From contig NZ_BBOJ01000007.1 in assembly GCF_000974445.1 (NCBI RefSeq), forward strand, positions 1-64,000: a stretch of 64,000 nucleotides of DNA, read 5' to 3'. The translations under genes and the position numbers were made by a program. This DNA is from Lentzea aerocolonigenes (GTDB lineage: Bacteria; Actinomycetota; Actinomycetes; Mycobacteriales; Pseudonocardiaceae). Under the pieces are notes generated by a model. The model made no database searches. It saw only the letters and a list, made by a program, of their open reading frames with translations, and was not told the DNA's origin. The first letter of the stretch is position 1, and each line of letters begins with the position of its first letter. Positions 13,517 through 41,686 of this stretch are shown in pieces.

Positions 13517-14599
13517 ATGAACGCGCGTTGGCTGGACTGGGTGATCGCCGCCGGAGTGGCGGCGAGCCTCGTGACCGCCGGGCACCCCGCCACCGGGCCC
13601 GGTTACGCGTTGCTGGCCGCGAGCGGGCTCGCGCTGGCGGCGCGCAGGACGGCGCCGGTCGCGGTGCTGGCCGCCACGGGACTCCTCGCGCTGGGCTACC
13701 AGGCGACCGGCGCCGACGTGCCGGTGATCGCGTTCCTGTTCGCGGTCTACTCGACGATGAGGGCTGGCCACCGGGTCGTCACGCTCGTTGGCTCGGTCCT
13801 GATGCTCGCCGCGCTCCCCGTCGCGGCGCTCCTCTCGCCCCGCGACCTCACCACCTACGAGGCGTTCGCGCAGACCCGGGACGTCCTGCAGATCGCGTGG
13901 CTCATCGCCGCCGCGGCCGCCGGTGAAGCGCTCAGGCAGGCCGAGCGCAGGGCCGACGAGGCCGAACGCACCCGCGAGGAGACCGCGCGCCGCCGTGCCA
14001 ACGAGGAACGCCTGCACATCGCGCGCGAGCTGCACGACTCGCTCACCCACCAGATCTCGGTGATCAAGCTCCAGGCCGAGGTCGCGGTCCACCTGGCGCA
14101 GAAGCGCGGCGAGGACGTGCCGGAAGCCCTCGTGGCCATCCGGGACGCGGGCCGGGAGGCGGCCAGGGAGCTCCGCGCGACGCTGGAAGCGCTCAGAGAC
14201 GACGACAAGAACCCGCCGCACGGCATCGACGACGTCGCCGAGCTGGTGCAACGCGCCCGAGCCACCGGTCTCGACGCGCAGCTGACCATCGAGGGCCGCA
14301 ACACCGACGTGCCGGCCGCCGTGGAACGCACGGCGTACCGGATCGTGCAGGAGTCGCTGACGAACATCGCCCGCCACGCCGCCGCCGCGACCGCGCAGGT
14401 CCGCATCGACTTCCGTCCCGACGCGCTGCTCATCCGTGTCGACGACGACGGCAAGGCCTCTCCCAAGACGTCCGAACCGGGCGTCGGACTGCTCGGCATG
14501 CGTGAACGCGTCACCGCACTCGGCGGCAGCCTCCAGGCCGCACCGCGCACCGAGGGCGGGTTCACCGTGCAGGCCGAACTCCCGGTGGCACAGCCGTGA
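13517..14599 (+). CDS. Two-component sensor histidine kinase, NarL-system type
   Basis: This 360-residue kinase has four to five N-terminal membrane segments (about 1-130), a charged coiled linker (about 135-170), and a HisKA_3 dimerisation domain with phospho-acceptor His173 in ARELHDSLTH. The C-terminal ATPase domain shows AYRIVQESLTNIARHA (N-box), DDDG (G1) and GVGLLGMRERV (G2). There is no extracellular sensor domain, so the signal is probably membrane-derived. The stop overlaps the response-regulator start by 4 bases, defining the cognate pair. An ACTAC-N7-GTAGT inverted repeat near 13442-13460 lies in its promoter region. Confidence 0.94.
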   Translation: MNARWLDWVIAAGVAASLVTAGHPATGPGYALLAASGLALAARRTAPVAVLAATGLLALGYQATGADVPVIAFLFAVYSTMRAGHRVVTLVGSVLMLAALPVAALLSPRDLTTYEAFAQTRDVLQIAWLIAAAAAGEALRQAERRADEAERTREETARRRANEERLHIARELHDSLTHQISVIKLQAEVAVHLAQKRGEDVPEALVAIRDAGREAARELRATLEALRDDDKNPPHGIDDVAELVQRARATGLDAQLTIEGRNTDVPAAVERTAYRIVQESLTNIARHAAAATAQVRIDFRPDALLIRVDDDGKASPKTSEPGVGLLGMRERVTALGGSLQAAPRTEGGFTVQAELPVAQP

Positions 14600-15249
14600 T
14601 CCGCGTGCTCCTGGTCGACGACCAGCCGTTGATCCGCAGCGGCTTCCGCGCGTTGCTCGACGCGGAGGACGACATCGAGGTCGTGGCAGAAGCGGCGAAC
14701 GGCTCCGAAGGCGTCGACCAGGCCCGGCGGCACCTCCCGGACATCGCGCTGATCGACATCCAGATGCCGGACGTCGACGGCATCGAGGCGACCAGGCGCA
14801 TCGCCGCCGATCCGGCCCTCGCGGCCGTCCACGTCGTGATCCTGACCAACTACGGCCTCGACGAGTACGTCTTCCACGCGCTGAAGGCAGGCGCGGCAGG
14901 GTTCCTCGTGAAGGACGTGCAGCCGGAGGACTTCCTGCACGCCGTCCGGGTAGCGGCCCGCGGCGACGCACTGCTCGCCCCGTCGATCACCCGCCGGCTG
15001 ATCGACCGGTACGTCAGCCAGCCGCCGCGGCAGAACGTGAGCCTCGGGCAGCTCACCAACCGCGAACGGGAAGCCGTCGTGATGGTCGCTCGTGGTCTGT
15101 CGAACGACGCGATCGCGGCGGCCATGGTGATCAGCCCGCTCACCGCCAAGACGCACGTGAACCGCGCGATGACCAAGCTGCACGCACGGGACCGCGCGCA
15201 GCTCGTGGTCATCGCCTACGAGTCGGGCCTGGTGGTGCCGCAGGCCTGA
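14596..15249 (+). CDS. NarL/LuxR-family response regulator
   Basis: A 217-residue regulator with a receiver domain (about 1-120) containing the acidic pair DD at 8-9, phospho-acceptor Asp54 in LIDIQMPDVDG, Thr in ILTN and Lys in FLVKDV. The C-terminal LuxR-type DNA-binding domain (about 150-210) reads LTNREREAVVMVARGLSNDA and TAKTHVNRAMTKL. It starts at a GTG inside the kinase gene's last codons, so translation is coupled. Targets are unknown; its own operon or the pentapeptide gene downstream are possible. Confidence 0.95.
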   Translation: MIRVLLVDDQPLIRSGFRALLDAEDDIEVVAEAANGSEGVDQARRHLPDIALIDIQMPDVDGIEATRRIAADPALAAVHVVILTNYGLDEYVFHALKAGAAGFLVKDVQPEDFLHAVRVAARGDALLAPSITRRLIDRYVSQPPRQNVSLGQLTNREREAVVMVARGLSNDAIAAAMVISPLTAKTHVNRAMTKLHARDRAQLVVIAYESGLVVPQA

Positions 15250-36869: not shown

Positions 36870-37892
36870 ATGAAGCTGAGACACGTGGTTTTCGGTGTGA
36901 CGACAGCAGTCGCGCTCTTGTTAGGCAGCGTCCCGGCGTCGGCCGGCGCCGCGCCGGGGCGTCTCTCGGTGTCCGGCGCCGAGGTGATCGATCCGTCCGG
37001 AAACCCGATCGTGCTGCGGGGCTACAACTGGGGGCACTGGGGCACGGTCCAGCCGCAGGACGCGGGCGACCACGTCGCGGCGGGCGCCAACTCGGTCCGG
37101 ATCCCGTTGCGCTGGTGGGGAGTCTGGAAGGACGACGTCGACAGCCGCGACCCCGATCCGGGCAATCCCAGCCACATCAAGCCAGGACACCTGGCGGTGC
37201 TCGACCAGATGATCGAGCAGGCGAGCTCCTCCGGCATGTGGATCACGCTGTTCGTCGACTCGAACTACGGGCAGGGCGCGGGCGGGCGGCCTGACAACTT
37301 CTGGACCAACCCCGTGATGAAGCAGCAGTTCAAGGAGGTCTGGCAGTTCCTCGTGCGGCGCTACAAGACCAAGCCGCACATGGGCGCGTTCGAGATCCTG
37401 CCCGAACCGAAGCCGGTCGGCCAGAGCGACGGCGAGGTGAAGGCGTTCTACGACGAGATGATCGCCGCGATCCGCACGATCGACCGCAGGACGCCGGTCG
37501 TGGTGGGACCCAACGACAACTACAGCTGCAGCCGTCTCGACGGCGCCCACACGACGGTCGACCCGAAGGTCATCTACACCTGCAACTACTTCATCTTCGA
37601 GAACCCGCTCAACCGGATCGGCCAGATCACCGGCTTCCGCGCCAGGCACGACGTCCCGGTGTGGATCAACCAGATCGGCATCGAGAGCGGCGACACCGAC
37701 GCCAAGGCGAAGGCCCGCGAAGTGCTCGGGGCCTTCGACACCAACCGGATCGGCTGGGCGTGGTGGACCTACCGGCTCAACGGCACCAACGCCTTGACGC
37801 ACGGCATCTACTACCTCGACCCGAACGCCCCGGACGGCTGGGCGGTCAAGAAGGACTGGCTGAGGCTGGTGAACGGCTACCTCGCCGCATGA
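36870..37892 (+). CDS. Secreted GH5-family endoglucanase/glycanase
   Basis: A 340-residue exported enzyme: signal peptide (about 1-27, AGAAP cleavage region), then a single (beta/alpha)8 domain. GH5 landmarks are VLRGYNWGHWG, NSVRIPLRWWG, the acid/base Glu in AFEILPEPKP and the nucleophile Glu in NQIGIESGD. The NEP triad reads as LPEP here, so the enzyme belongs to an atypical GH5 subgroup. There is no carbohydrate-binding module, and no CebR-type operator is seen upstream, unlike the cellulase genes at 51-57 kb. It overlaps the convergent acyltransferase gene by 47 bases. Confidence 0.85.
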   Translation: MKLRHVVFGVTTAVALLLGSVPASAGAAPGRLSVSGAEVIDPSGNPIVLRGYNWGHWGTVQPQDAGDHVAAGANSVRIPLRWWGVWKDDVDSRDPDPGNPSHIKPGHLAVLDQMIEQASSSGMWITLFVDSNYGQGAGGRPDNFWTNPVMKQQFKEVWQFLVRRYKTKPHMGAFEILPEPKPVGQSDGEVKAFYDEMIAAIRTIDRRTPVVVGPNDNYSCSRLDGAHTTVDPKVIYTCNYFIFENPLNRIGQITGFRARHDVPVWINQIGIESGDTDAKAKAREVLGAFDTNRIGWAWWTYRLNGTNALTHGIYYLDPNAPDGWAVKKDWLRLVNGYLAA

Positions 37893-38838
37893 CCGGCTCC
37901 TCCACGTAACGCCAGCTGAGCGCCGCCGCCACGATCGTGAGGACCGCCGCGATCGGCCCGGCGGCGGCGCCCAGCTCCGGCCGCAGCCACAGCGTCAGCG
38001 GGTAGTTCCACAGATAGGCGCCGTAGGACAGCACTCCCAGCGCCACCAGCGGACGGACCGGCGTCGCCACCTCCTCCCACTTCGACCACGCCAGCAGCAG
38101 CACCGCCGTGCAGCCCGCGATCGCCGGACCCGCCACCAGGTACGTCAGCACGTGGCCGCGCAACGGGATCACCGACAGCACCGACAGGCCCGCCAAAGCG
38201 ATCGGCACCGCCCAGCGCGGGACGCGGGTCAGCTTCAGCCTCGTCGCCGCGCCGATCACGAAGCACACGAACCACGACGTCGGCAGCGCGTAGGCGTTGT
38301 CGGCGTCGGGCCACAGCCAGACCAGCGTCGCCGTGCACGCCGCAAGTGCTCCGAGCGCCGTCACGACCAGCACCGCGCCGGTCCGGTCGCGCACCCACGC
38401 GAACGCCAGCAACGCCGGCCACAGCAGGTAGAACTGCTCCTCCGTCGCGAGCGTCCAGCTGTGGAACGCCGCCGGGCTCACCCCGCCGATCGGCAGGTTG
38501 CCGGTGAACGTCAGCAGCACCGCAGCCGTCCGCACCAGTTCGTCGCGCTCCCCCAACGGGTCGAACACGAGCGTGACCACCACGAAGACAACCGTCAGCG
38601 CTGCCAACGCCGGCAACAGCCTGCGCGCCCGCCGCAGGTAGAACCGCTTGAAGTCGACGCGCCCCCTGCTCTCCAGCTCCCCGGTGAGCACGCCGGTGAT
38701 CAGGTAGCCGCTCAACGTGAAGAACACGACGACCCCGACCACACCGGCACCGGGGAACACGTCGGGAAACGCGTGCCGCAGCATCACGAGCAGAATCGCG
38801 ACGCCGCGCAGCACGTCCAGCCCGGCGATGCGCCTCAC
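37846..38838 (-). CDS. Membrane acyltransferase (acyltransferase_3 family)
   Basis: A 330-residue protein with about 10 hydrophobic segments. The family's catalytic segment is GLDVLRGVAILLVMLRHAFP (Arg-His), followed by FTLSGYLITGVL and RRARRLLPALAAL; LATEEQFYLLWPALL and SYGAYLWNYPLTLW are other conserved stretches. Members O-acylate cell-surface polymers. The VanT serine/alanine racemases of enterococci have a related membrane domain fused to a racemase. The GTG start at 38838 overlaps the Ddl stop by four bases, so it is translated with the cell-wall genes. Confidence 0.88.
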   Translation of the reverse strand: MRRIAGLDVLRGVAILLVMLRHAFPDVFPGAGVVGVVVFFTLSGYLITGVLTGELESRGRVDFKRFYLRRARRLLPALAALTVVFVVVTLVFDPLGERDELVRTAAVLLTFTGNLPIGGVSPAAFHSWTLATEEQFYLLWPALLAFAWVRDRTGAVLVVTALGALAACTATLVWLWPDADNAYALPTSWFVCFVIGAATRLKLTRVPRWAVPIALAGLSVLSVIPLRGHVLTYLVAGPAIAGCTAVLLLAWSKWEEVATPVRPLVALGVLSYGAYLWNYPLTLWLRPELGAAAGPIAAVLTIVAAALSWRYVEEPVMRRGSRSPASASPS

Positions 38839-39788
38839 CGCACCGCTCCCCTGATGAGCTTGTCCAGCAGGTCCGGATAGGACAGTCCGGCGGCCGCGAA
38901 CATCTTGGGCACCTGCGACTCCGCCGTCATGCCCGGCATGGTGTTGACCTCGTTGAGCACCAGGCCGTCGTCGGTGAGGAAGAAGTCGACGCGCGCCAGC
39001 CCGCGGCACCCGAGCGCCTCGTAGACCTTCAGGGCGGCGTCTTCCAGGGCCTTCAGCTCGGTGTCCGCCAACGGCGCCGGGATGAGGAACTCGGCACTGC
39101 CGTCGTACTTCACGGTGGTGTCGAAGAGACCGGGCACCTGGATCTCCAGCGGTGGCCCTGTCCTGCGCCCTTCGTCCGGGTCGTCGAGTACCGCGATGTC
39201 GATCTCCCGGCCTTCGAGCACCTCCTCGACGAGCACCCTGTCGTCGAGCTCCAGCGCCTGGCGGACAGCGGGTTCGAGCTCCCCCTCCTGCTCCACGAGC
39301 CGCACCCCGAAGCTCGACCCCGCCGCCACCGGCTTCACCACGACAGGGCCGGTGAAGTCCACAGTGGACGCGTTGGTGACCAGCCTGCCCCGCGCCGTCC
39401 GCACCCCGACGGCCTCGGCGACGAGCTTGGTGGCCCACTTGTCCATCGCGAGCGCACCGGCCCGCAACGGCGAGCCCACGTACGGAATCCCCGCCAGCTC
39501 GCACAACCCGGCCAGCGTGCCGTCCTCCCCCAACGGCCCGTGGACCAGCGGCAGCACCACGTCGCAGCTCGCCAGCACGTCGAGCGCGGCGGCGAGGCTG
39601 CCGGACGCCGACGTGTCCAGGACCTGCCCGCTCTGTCCGCACCAGCGGCCGTCGCGACCGATCGTGAGCGCCACGACCTCGTACTTCGCCGGATCGAGCG
39701 CGGCCCGCACCGACGCCGCCGACGCCACGGACACGTCGTGCTCGCAGTTCTGTCCGCCGCCGATCACGGCAACGCGGATTCCCTTCAC
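38835..39788 (-). CDS. D-alanine-D-alanine ligase family enzyme
   Basis: A 317-residue ATP-grasp ligase that joins D-alanine to a second D-amino acid in the cytoplasm. It has VAVIGGGQNCEHDVSVASA (N-terminal Glu-His), HGPLGEDGTLAGL, VVKPVAAGSSFGV (ATP loop), the omega-loop segment FDTTVKYDGSAEFLIPA retaining the Lys-Tyr of D-Ala-adding enzymes, and the metal site DGLVLNEVNTMPGM. The Lys-Tyr argues against a VanA-type D-lactate ligase; D-Ala or D-Ser acceptors are compatible. It sits between a racemase and an acyltransferase with a VanX-like gene in the same operon, suggesting a non-housekeeping cell-wall role. Confidence 0.93.
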   Translation of the reverse strand: MKGIRVAVIGGGQNCEHDVSVASAASVRAALDPAKYEVVALTIGRDGRWCGQSGQVLDTSASGSLAAALDVLASCDVVLPLVHGPLGEDGTLAGLCELAGIPYVGSPLRAGALAMDKWATKLVAEAVGVRTARGRLVTNASTVDFTGPVVVKPVAAGSSFGVRLVEQEGELEPAVRQALELDDRVLVEEVLEGREIDIAVLDDPDEGRRTGPPLEIQVPGLFDTTVKYDGSAEFLIPAPLADTELKALEDAALKVYEALGCRGLARVDFFLTDDGLVLNEVNTMPGMTAESQVPKMFAAAGLSYPDLLDKLIRGAVR

Positions 39789-39843
39789 AGCTGCACCCCG
39801 GATTCAGGTTTGGTTTTGGTCAACACTGAAGTAATAGAGACGA

Positions 39844-40953
39844 TCATCCGACCAGCCGCCGCACCCGCGGGCCGATGCCGGTCACGACCTCGTGCGGGAT
39901 GGTCCCCGCCCACCGCGCCCAGTCCGCGACCGTCGGTTCGCCCCGCTCCCCCGGCCCGAACACCACGGCCTCGTCCCCCGGCGCCACGGCGTCGTCCCCG
40001 ACGTCCACCACGACCTGGTCCATCGAGATCACCCCGACGACCCGCCGGCGCCGTCCCGCGAGCCACACCTCCGCGGCCCCCGAAGCCGCCCGCGGCAGCC
40101 CGTCCGCGTACCCCACCGGCAGCAGCGCCAACGTCGTCGCACGGTTCGTGACGTGCGCATGTCCGTAGCCGACGCCGGTCCCCGCGGCCACCCGCCGCAC
40201 CTGGACCACCGGTGCGGTGAACCGCAACGCGGAACGCAGCCGGGTGCTCCCGGACGGGTCGATCCCCACCAGCCCGGCCCCGATCCGGACGACGTCCAGA
40301 TGCGTGCCGGGGTCCGTCAGCGCCGCGCTCGTGGCCGCCAGGTGCCGCACCGACGGCAGCAACCCGGCCTGGCGCGCCATCTCGACGCCGCGCAGCAACG
40401 CACGCTTCCCGGACTCATTCGCTCCAAGCGTGTCGGCACACGGCAGATGTCCCATCACTCCGACGACCGAGACCTTCCCGGCCAGTTCCGCACGACGAGC
40501 GGCCGACATCAACGCCAGCCACTCCTCCGGCGCGGCGCCGTCGCGCGCCATCCCGGTGTCCAGCTGGAGGTGCACGCGCACCGGACCGGCCCGTTCGACC
40601 GCGGCCAGGTGCTCGAGGCTCGGCACGCTGAGGTCGATCCCGTACCGCACCGCCTGGTGCACGTCGACGTCGACCGGGTTGAGCCAGCTGAGCACCGGAA
40701 CGTCCACACCGGACTCCCGCACCGCCACCGCCTCGGCGAGCGACGTGACGCCGATCCACGTCGCACCGGCGGCGACCGCCGTCCGGGCCACGTCGCCGAG
40801 ACCGTGCCCGAACCCGTCCGCCTTCACCACGGCCATGACCTCGCCGCGAGCCAGCGCCACGAACCGCCGGGTGTTGTCCGCCACCGCAGCGAGATCGACG
40901 GAGAGCGAGGGTGACGCCGACGCCTGGCGCAGGCGCGTCACGAGCGCGCCCAC
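39844..40953 (-). CDS. Alanine racemase-type PLP enzyme
   Basis: A 369-residue fold-III PLP enzyme. The N-terminal barrel carries the catalytic lysine in AVVKADGFGHG; HLQLDTGMARDG and GYGHAHV follow, and the C-terminal beta domain has the second base near VGVISMDQVVVDVG. It interconverts L- and D-alanine, or L- and D-serine if VanT-like. In housekeeping enzymes the key Tyr is in AVVKANAYGHG; here the sequence reads KADGFGHG, with Phe replacing that Tyr. It overlaps the VanX-like gene by 16 bases and precedes ddl by 56 bases. Confidence 0.9.
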   Translation of the reverse strand: MGALVTRLRQASASPSLSVDLAAVADNTRRFVALARGEVMAVVKADGFGHGLGDVARTAVAAGATWIGVTSLAEAVAVRESGVDVPVLSWLNPVDVDVHQAVRYGIDLSVPSLEHLAAVERAGPVRVHLQLDTGMARDGAAPEEWLALMSAARRAELAGKVSVVGVMGHLPCADTLGANESGKRALLRGVEMARQAGLLPSVRHLAATSAALTDPGTHLDVVRIGAGLVGIDPSGSTRLRSALRFTAPVVQVRRVAAGTGVGYGHAHVTNRATTLALLPVGYADGLPRAASGAAEVWLAGRRRRVVGVISMDQVVVDVGDDAVAPGDEAVVFGPGERGEPTVADWARWAGTIPHEVVTGIGPRVRRLVG

Positions 40954-41555
40954 GCAGGCACCTCCACCGGTCCGTAGACAGCGTTGTCAGCGCCGCTCAG
41001 CAACGCCCAGTAGCGGTCGCCGTAGGACCAGTGCCACCACTCGGTCGGGTAGTTGACCAGGCCGGCGCTGCTCAACGCGTCCGCCAGCACCGTCCGGTTG
41101 CGGCGTGCCTCGGCGTCCACCGGCGCGGCGAAGAAGCACGCGCCGTCGCTCTCCTCGGGCGTGGCGTCGACCTCCGTGCCCATCCACAGCTCGACACCCG
41201 ACGTCGTGACGAGCGTGAGGTCGACCGCCGCACCGGCGACGTGCGGGGCGACGGCCAGCGGCGCCACGAACCGGCTGGACAACCGGTCCAGCTCGACCGC
41301 GTCGGCCGCGGGGTGGAGCTCGCGCAGCTCGGCCGTGTACCGCTCGATGATCGCGCTCTGGTCGGCGGCGCTGCGGTGCCCCTCGACCACGCGCAGGTCC
41401 ACACCGGACGGAAGCAGCGCGCGGGCCACGTCGAGCCGCCGCGCGAGGCCCTCGCGCACCAGCACGCCGGGCGCGAAGTCCAGTGGTACCAACGGATCCC
41501 CGTTGTCGAGCACGCGAACGGCGCGCACGACCGGATCTGCGAGCAGGATGGTCAT
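40938..41555 (-). CDS. VanX-like D-Ala-D-Ala dipeptidase
   Basis: A 205-residue M15D-type zinc dipeptidase. APHVAGAAVDLTL supplies the His and Asp of the SxHxxGxAxD motif, and PTEWWHWSYGDRYWA supplies the catalytic Glu and zinc His. No signal peptide is present, fitting cytoplasmic hydrolysis of D-Ala-D-Ala. In glycopeptide-resistant bacteria such enzymes remove the normal dipeptide so that an altered one is incorporated. It is first in the minus-strand operon with racemase, ligase and acyltransferase. No VanH dehydrogenase or VanRS pair adjoins it. Confidence 0.9.
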   Translation of the reverse strand: MTILLADPVVRAVRVLDNGDPLVPLDFAPGVLVREGLARRLDVARALLPSGVDLRVVEGHRSAADQSAIIERYTAELRELHPAADAVELDRLSSRFVAPLAVAPHVAGAAVDLTLVTTSGVELWMGTEVDATPEESDGACFFAAPVDAEARRNRTVLADALSSAGLVNYPTEWWHWSYGDRYWALLSGADNAVYGPVEVPAWARS

Positions 41556-41614: not shown

Positions 41615-41654
41615 CCGAACGGCCGGTTCGACGACGTCCACATCGGCCGTTCGG
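41615..41654. repeat. 10-bp inverted repeat CCGAACGGCC-N20-GGCCGTTCGG
   Basis: Perfect 10-bp arms with a 20-base spacer lie between the divergent VanX-like and MBL genes. They could be a dyad regulator site or a bidirectional hairpin. Confidence 0.45.
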
Positions 41655-41664
41655 CCGAGGGCTT

Positions 41665-41686
41665 GACTTGAACCGCGATTCAAGTC
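41665..41686. promoter_or_regulatory. Operator-like dyad GACTTGAA-N6-TTCAAGTC
   Basis: Perfect 8-bp arms start 35 bases upstream of the MBL ATG. TTGACT (41663-41668) overlaps the left arm and resembles a -35 box, so a repressor bound here would block the promoter. No regulator gene adjoins it. Confidence 0.6.

Follow-up and report, generated by a model that had tools for sequence, protein, structure and literature searches.

A four-gene operon in Lentzea aerocolonigenes

The window analysed here is a stretch of 64,000 nucleotides from Lentzea aerocolonigenes (contig NZ_BBOJ01000007.1, positions 1 to 64,000). It carries four minus-strand genes, running from 41555 down to 37846, for an M15 dipeptidase, an Alr-fold racemase, a Ddl-fold ligase and an AT3 acyltransferase, which together may form a system for remodelling the D-Ala-D-Ala ends of cell wall precursors. 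The dipeptidase gene (40938..41555) encodes an M15 metallopeptidase of 205 amino acids (aa), a candidate D-Ala-D-Ala dipeptidase of the VanX/DdpX kind, which scores 57.5 bits with PF01427 (cut-off 27). The racemase gene (39844..40953) encodes a pyridoxal phosphate enzyme in which His354 replaces a conserved Tyr (PF01168/PF00842; 173 and 142 bits with the N- and C-domain models of Ala_racemase, cut-offs 24.1 and 25). The third gene (38835..39788) encodes a putative ATP-grasp D-Ala-D-X ligase with Gln292 (PF07478/PF01820; 178 and 94 bits with the C- and N-domain models of Ddl, cut-offs 24 and 34.6). The last gene (37846..38838) encodes a membrane acyltransferase of 330 aa belonging to Acyl_transf_3, or AT3 (PF01757, 109 bits, cut-off 31). 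Coordinates and Pfam families confirm the first-pass annotation of this DNA, which had described four tightly packed genes of these families.

The dipeptidase and racemase genes (junction near 40941) and the ligase and AT3 genes (junction near 38838) are joined by GTGA overlaps and the gap between the racemase and ligase genes is 55 nt; therefore, the four genes are read as one operon. A GTG at 40941, within the first overlap, is more likely to be the racemase start than 40953, and the AT3 start at 38838 agrees with its overlap and gives a protein as long as many of its closest homologues, which also have 330 aa. The M15 residues Arg61, His105, Asp112, Glu172 and His175 are kept in 54 of 54 dipeptidase rows and no signal peptide was seen on visual inspection. 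By homology, the operon would encode a D-Ala-D-Ala dipeptidase, as vanC/G-type operons do. All 33 AT3 proteins from operons of this type retain Arg25 and His36, with the spacing RX10H of a catalytic AT3 motif. AT3 and the racemase are two separate genes in Lentzea, which agrees with the earlier description of a VanT whose parts are split.

The operon is accessory to the genome. The first-pass annotation had stated that its interpretation would be refuted if the racemase and ligase were sole copies making only D-Ala-D-Ala; they are not sole copies, as the 10.69-Mb genome contains two Alr and three strong Ddl matches, operon copies included, which leaves one further alr and two further ddl-like genes outside the operon. 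A second M15 protein, 39% identical to the dipeptidase of the window and under the Pfam cut-off, is present on contig C45, where its 3.1-kb locus (L012) gives no Alr or Ddl match. At least two places matching the Alr C-domain and at least two matching the Ddl N-domain are present in 20 of 20 relatives' genomes tested, which are a subset of the 80 fetched loci described below.

Distribution of the operon's ligase family is patchy. With a profile built from 18 of these ligases, members were detected in 33 of the 297 genomes searched from the taxonomic family of the window, spread over 9 of 46 genera, and in 16 of 24 genomes of the same genus. Across the phylum, 396 genomes were sampled, with at most five candidates scored per genome; only two carry a family ligase, the window's own included (540 and 512 bits), and the next match is at 287 bits. 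The loci closest to that of the window are from Lentzea species.

Residues at or near the racemase and ligase substrate pockets

Position 354 of the racemase is His in 78 of the 79 family rows that have the residue and Asn in the remaining one (L082); a further gene (L015) is interrupted in its draft and lacks the position. All 21 other Alr proteins examined have Tyr there. These comprise one non-operon copy from each of the 20 relatives' genomes and the one from the own genome, a paired control that left out further Alr matches in one genome (G019) and further Ddl matches in several. Tyr354 is reported to set alanine specificity, its change to Asn yielding an alanine/serine racemase (PMC5025676), and the VanT of E. 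gallinarum is described as having Asn at this position (PMC3485190). Lys44, Arg137 and Tyr263 are kept in 80 of 80 family racemases. The first-pass annotation had drawn attention to KADGFGHG in place of KANAYGHG. The motif is indeed present, but Phe48 could be rejected as the telling residue, being variable within the family (59 of the 80 rows have Phe, 20 have Tyr and one has Leu). What distinguishes the family from the housekeeping Alr copies examined is the change from Tyr to His354, which that annotation does not mention. In a tree that includes 26 of the 80 family racemases, these cluster together and are separated from the housekeeping rows with a support of 100/100.

A second family-wide change is found in the ligase. 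All 81 family rows have Gln at position 292, which we take to be equivalent to DdlB Leu282 in the second-substrate pocket loop. Gln is absent there from 22 other Ddl-like proteins, namely the best-scoring non-operon match of 20 genomes and two of the own genome. Met, Ala or Leu are present in these proteins, and Arg in one that is VanA-like. Another 28 proteins of the phylum sample, the best-scoring ones outside the family, have Met, Val or Ala at this position, and no Alr match was obtained in their loci of about 4 kb.

The 26 of 81 family ligases placed in a tree likewise cluster to the exclusion of the housekeeping rows (100/100). Comparison by phylogeny with VanT and with VanC/E/G/N had been proposed earlier. 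In the ligase tree the family is nearer actinobacterial Ddl than two VanA/VanI-type rows, on a branch (98/77) that is not starred and for which long branches are flagged, in a tree holding neither VanC nor VanG. A D-Ala-D-Lac ligase of the vanHAX type could be rejected, since Lys227-Tyr228 is kept in 81 of 81 family ligases as against FRIH in VanA, and the D_ala_D_lac model gives 232 bits for a cut-off of 550. Two side observations concern other ligases. In Aeromicrobium sp. 9AM (L134) the best non-operon Ddl is VanA-like, and a D-Lac-type ligase seems to be present there besides the racemase-ligase operon. In one vanG-labelled Clostridia record the ligase was closest to ordinary Ddl, VanG (4fu0) ranking tenth. 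PMC12004154 gave no match for VanC-type ligase residues.

The changed residues sit at or near the substrate pockets of the two enzymes, a position that would also suit isozymes insensitive to D-cycloserine. This drug attacks exactly these two enzymes, Alr and Ddl (PMC5717164), and Ddl variants have been described as able to confer resistance to it (PMC7691350). However, such isozymes would leave the M15 and VanY-like peptidases, AT3 and the VanRS-like regulators of the related loci unexplained, which makes this explanation quite improbable.

Recurrence, neighbourhood and fusions

Context of the operon was followed in the best 80 of 294 ligase relatives from one scan of genome contigs, by tblastn with few queries, so that distant peptidases, AT3 proteins or kinases are missed in the counts. 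Alr is directly upstream of Ddl in 79 of the 80 loci and the 80th is cut at a contig end, which rules out a chance neighbourhood. An M15 dipeptidase is present in 53 loci and a VanY-like peptidase in 16 (either in 69); neither was found in 11, some of which are incomplete. AT3 follows in 32 of the 80, a two-component system is nearby in 53 (38 NarL-type and 15 OmpR-type), and both are present in 14. One example locus, from Actinomadura (L072), has a regulator and a kinase scoring 447 bits with VanR-O and 417 bits with VanS-O, the next models reaching 175 each, and a peptidase scoring 232 bits with VanY-N, far above the next model; none of the three reaches its curated cut-off (505, 720 and 250, respectively). 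In the Nocardioides locus L050, the kinase is of the HisKA_3 kind and the regulator is LuxR-type, and the families listed for them include no Van model.

A candidate operator, the inverted repeat CGAACCGGCCGTTCGG, is located at 41615..41630 on the minus strand, 59 bp upstream of the dipeptidase start. It is exact in 10 of 17 rows from related loci and has at most two mismatches in 13, in which its distance to the dipeptidase start is 59-61 bp. Within the window alone the repeat is not beyond chance, as 26 of 100 window shuffles give a match at two mismatches. Sites of the form TTGAA-N6-TTCAA are also present upstream of the operon in L016, L017, L018, L020 and L022, and a palindrome, CTTGAACCGCGATTCAAG, is located at 41667-41684 near a divergent gene for a metallo-beta-lactamase-fold protein.

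A Pfam scan of eight flanking genes identified metallo-beta-lactamase-fold, NAD kinase, alpha/beta hydrolase, cellulase, TetR and MerR families and left two genes without a match; no biosynthetic gene was seen among the eight. The latter result bears on the idea that the operon makes a D-dipeptide which is then acylated by AT3 for a secreted natural product. Presence of AT3 within the operon would be in keeping with it, but AT3 was not found in 48 of the 80 relatives, some of them incomplete and all searched with few queries, and together with the flanking genes this renders a natural-product role very improbable.

The two enzymes are also found fused. On a Streptomyces anthocyanicus plasmid (L093), Alr and Ddl are combined in a single protein of 728 aa, which has His at the racemase site and Gln at the ligase site. 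Its gene is followed by an AT3 gene and then a GNAT gene, and the ligase half of this protein groups with the family ligases (100/99). On the Streptomyces linear plasmids L093, L166 and L167 alike, long alr genes are followed by GNAT, with AT3 between them in L093. Among five plasmid loci other than L093 that carry a related racemase, two from Streptomyces have a long alr gene and then GNAT; the rest are a Streptomyces 528-aa alr without either neighbour, a lone alr in Arthrobacter and one unannotated record. An AT3-type acyltransferase is listed in none of these five.

The racemase half of L093 has 2194 relatives; at position 354, the best 120 of these have His (97), Leu (10), Gln (7) or Asn (2), and other residues in the remaining four, one of them Tyr. 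Forty-four of the 120 cover the ligase site as well, with the 354/292 pairs His-Gln in 21, Leu-Leu in 10, His-Leu in 5 and others in 8; among these two-domain proteins the two residues tend to change together. The ten Leu-Leu Alr-Ddl fusions (P0052, P0059, P0066, P0070, P0071, P0076, P0077, P0078, P0082 and P0089), some of them named Actinospica, share nearly one motif and may be a single lineage. Leu at both positions suggests that these ten would act on another substrate. For the operon itself, the co-variation would be compatible with remodelling to a D-Ala-D-X with a residue other than serine as X, such as D-Thr, D-Asn or Gly, as would a His that differs from the Asn of VanT and a Gln that differs from the Arg of VanA-type rows. 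However, Asn replaces His in L082, P0094 and P0116, which points to serine, and we hold a non-serine X to be unlikely.

In P0094, a protein of Micromonospora sp. URMC 103 and one of the 120 listed relatives, AT3 and the racemase are fused in the order of VanT, with Asn at position 354; no plasmid record covering most of it was found. Its AT3 is not detectably similar to that of the window (BLASTP, best E 0.47), and the AT3 of plasmid L093 is weakly similar to the latter (E 2e-06). Because the AT3 of P0094 is unlike that of the window, at least one association of AT3 with a racemase looks to be separate in origin, judging from these AT3 proteins and not from VanT itself. Four operon-type or plasmid AT3 proteins gave no match to any VanT model.

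Predicted precursor remodelling and the known van systems

On balance, and with slightly better than even confidence, we favour the reading that the operon remodels D-Ala-D-Ala precursor ends to D-Ala-D-X, where X is most likely D-Ser. The racemase would convert L-X to D-X, a product made instead of D-Ala or in addition to it and most probably D-Ser, the ligase would join D-X to D-Ala, and the dipeptidase would clear normal D-Ala-D-Ala. MurF would then add the D-Ala-D-X dipeptide to the precursor, as described for enterococci (PMC8541618), and affinity for glycopeptides would fall, giving tolerance. A dipeptidase next to a ligase making only D-Ala-D-Ala would amount to a futile cycle, which argues for some other product. 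AT3 would be the separate counterpart of the VanT membrane domain and may help to supply substrate or acylate the product outside the membrane. The membrane domain of VanT has been described as an L-serine transporter domain (PMC6182600). Associations of AT3 with a racemase are counted in the Firmicutes VanT, the Lentzea/Nocardioides operon, the Streptomyces plasmid and the Micromonospora fusion. It is conceivable, though doubtful, that the repeated tie of AT3 to D-Ser-type racemases reflects acylation of the D-Ala-D-X precursor on the outer face, for instance at the serine hydroxyl. The membrane part of VanT would then be more than a serine transporter, namely an acyltransferase.

Several observations weigh against remodelling to D-Ala-D-Ser. 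Ser158 and Tyr228 of the ligase are kept in 81 of 81 rows and are, by motif, equivalent to DdlB Ser150 and Tyr216, which are described as conserved in Ddls making only D-Ala-D-Ala (PMC7691350); this speaks against D-Ser. Among the Van families listed (25 of 53 for the ligase), the D-Ala-D-Ser ligase cut-offs are missed (NF000207, 218 of 520 bits; NF000091 for VanG, 244 of 495), as are the VanT cut-offs by the racemase (NF033131, 187 of 460; NF033132, 111 of 900; NF033133, 67 of 750) and that of VanX by the dipeptidase (34 of 320). In the racemase tree, which is unrooted, the racemase half of the plasmid fusion sits on the side of the housekeeping rows (100/100). AT3 was not found in 48 of the 80 loci, and in 9 of the 80 neither AT3 nor a two-component system was found. 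No two-component system adjoins the operon in 14 Lentzea loci or among the eight flanking genes. The sole pair in the window is NarL-type, at 13874-15234 on the plus strand and about 23 kb from the operon; its regulator is 42% and its kinase 26% identical to those of the Nocardioides pair, and nothing ties it to the operon. The own genome has no close VanR-O or VanS-O, the best scores being 272 and 186 bits. The Lentzea operon may answer to a regulator encoded elsewhere.

Retention of Ser158 and Tyr228 would also be expected if the operon encoded an ordinary additional Alr and Ddl for D-Ala-D-Ala synthesis, used either under wall stress or for recycling with the dipeptidase. General cut-offs are indeed passed by the ligase (NF002528, 299 against 262 bits; TIGR01205, 282 against 245.65) and by the racemase (227 against 168 for alr). 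Yet His354 and Gln292 are fixed and were not seen in the non-operon copies that were examined from these genomes, and the co-encoded dipeptidase would undo the product; ordinary second copies are therefore fairly unlikely. We prefer to say that the operon would work like a D-Ala-D-X remodelling system and do not claim membership of vanC/G, because Ser158 and Tyr228 are kept and the Van cut-offs are missed where the general ones are passed. The VanT/VanC-like reading of the first-pass annotation holds up in part: accessory status, pocket residues, the Van-like neighbours in L072 and the P0094 fusion with Asn agree with it, but no listed VanT, D-Ser-ligase or VanX cut-off is reached and the ligase keeps the motif equivalents of a signature published for D-Ala-D-Ala-only enzymes.

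With the vanC/vanG-type clusters of Firmicutes, the operon shares a ligase, a D-Ala-D-Ala peptidase, a racemase and an AT3 membrane domain, along with two-component systems beside its relatives. It differs from them in its separate AT3 and racemase genes, in having His in place of Asn, in a ligase that keeps Tyr and has Gln, in reaching none of their family cut-offs, and in a ligase nearer actinobacterial Ddl in the tree described above. The likeness to VanT lies in AT3 and an Alr-type racemase occurring together, fused and with Asn in the Micromonospora protein; in Lentzea they are split, and the AT3 scores on no VanT model, the comparison being with models and not with a VanT sequence. The vanL cluster has separate membrane and racemase genes and would be a precedent for a split VanT. 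However, vanL is of the enterococcal D-Ala-D-Ser type, and the NCBIfam 'VanT-L catalytic subunit' model gives 67 of 750 bits here.

Also comparable are the rare clusters of vanRSY with a racemase and ddl that Andreo-Vidal et al. 2021 (PMC8698665) named in Allonocardiopsis, Murinocardiopsis and Geodermatophilales, with D-Ala-D-Ser as the proposed product. The clusters described there contain the racemase, Ddl, a VanY-like peptidase and VanRS. Relatives in our ligase group have VanY-like and VanRS-like genes beside the pair, and Lentzea has M15 and AT3 instead. The main text of that paper, in the parts covered, mentions neither Lentzea, Nocardioides nor vanT, and neither an M15-AT3 form nor a residue signature. 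No report of the two residue changes or of the AT3 form was found in the open-licence literature searched.

As AT3 and the racemase are separate genes here, each can be removed or assayed alone in a Lentzea or a Nocardioides. For van-like genes, soil actinobacteria are considered the most probable primary source (PMC8698665), and ten van types are listed in PMC4229326. If our reading is true, the operon would represent a distinct type of precursor remodelling in soil actinobacteria, defined by its ligase and racemase and lying outside those ten listed van types.

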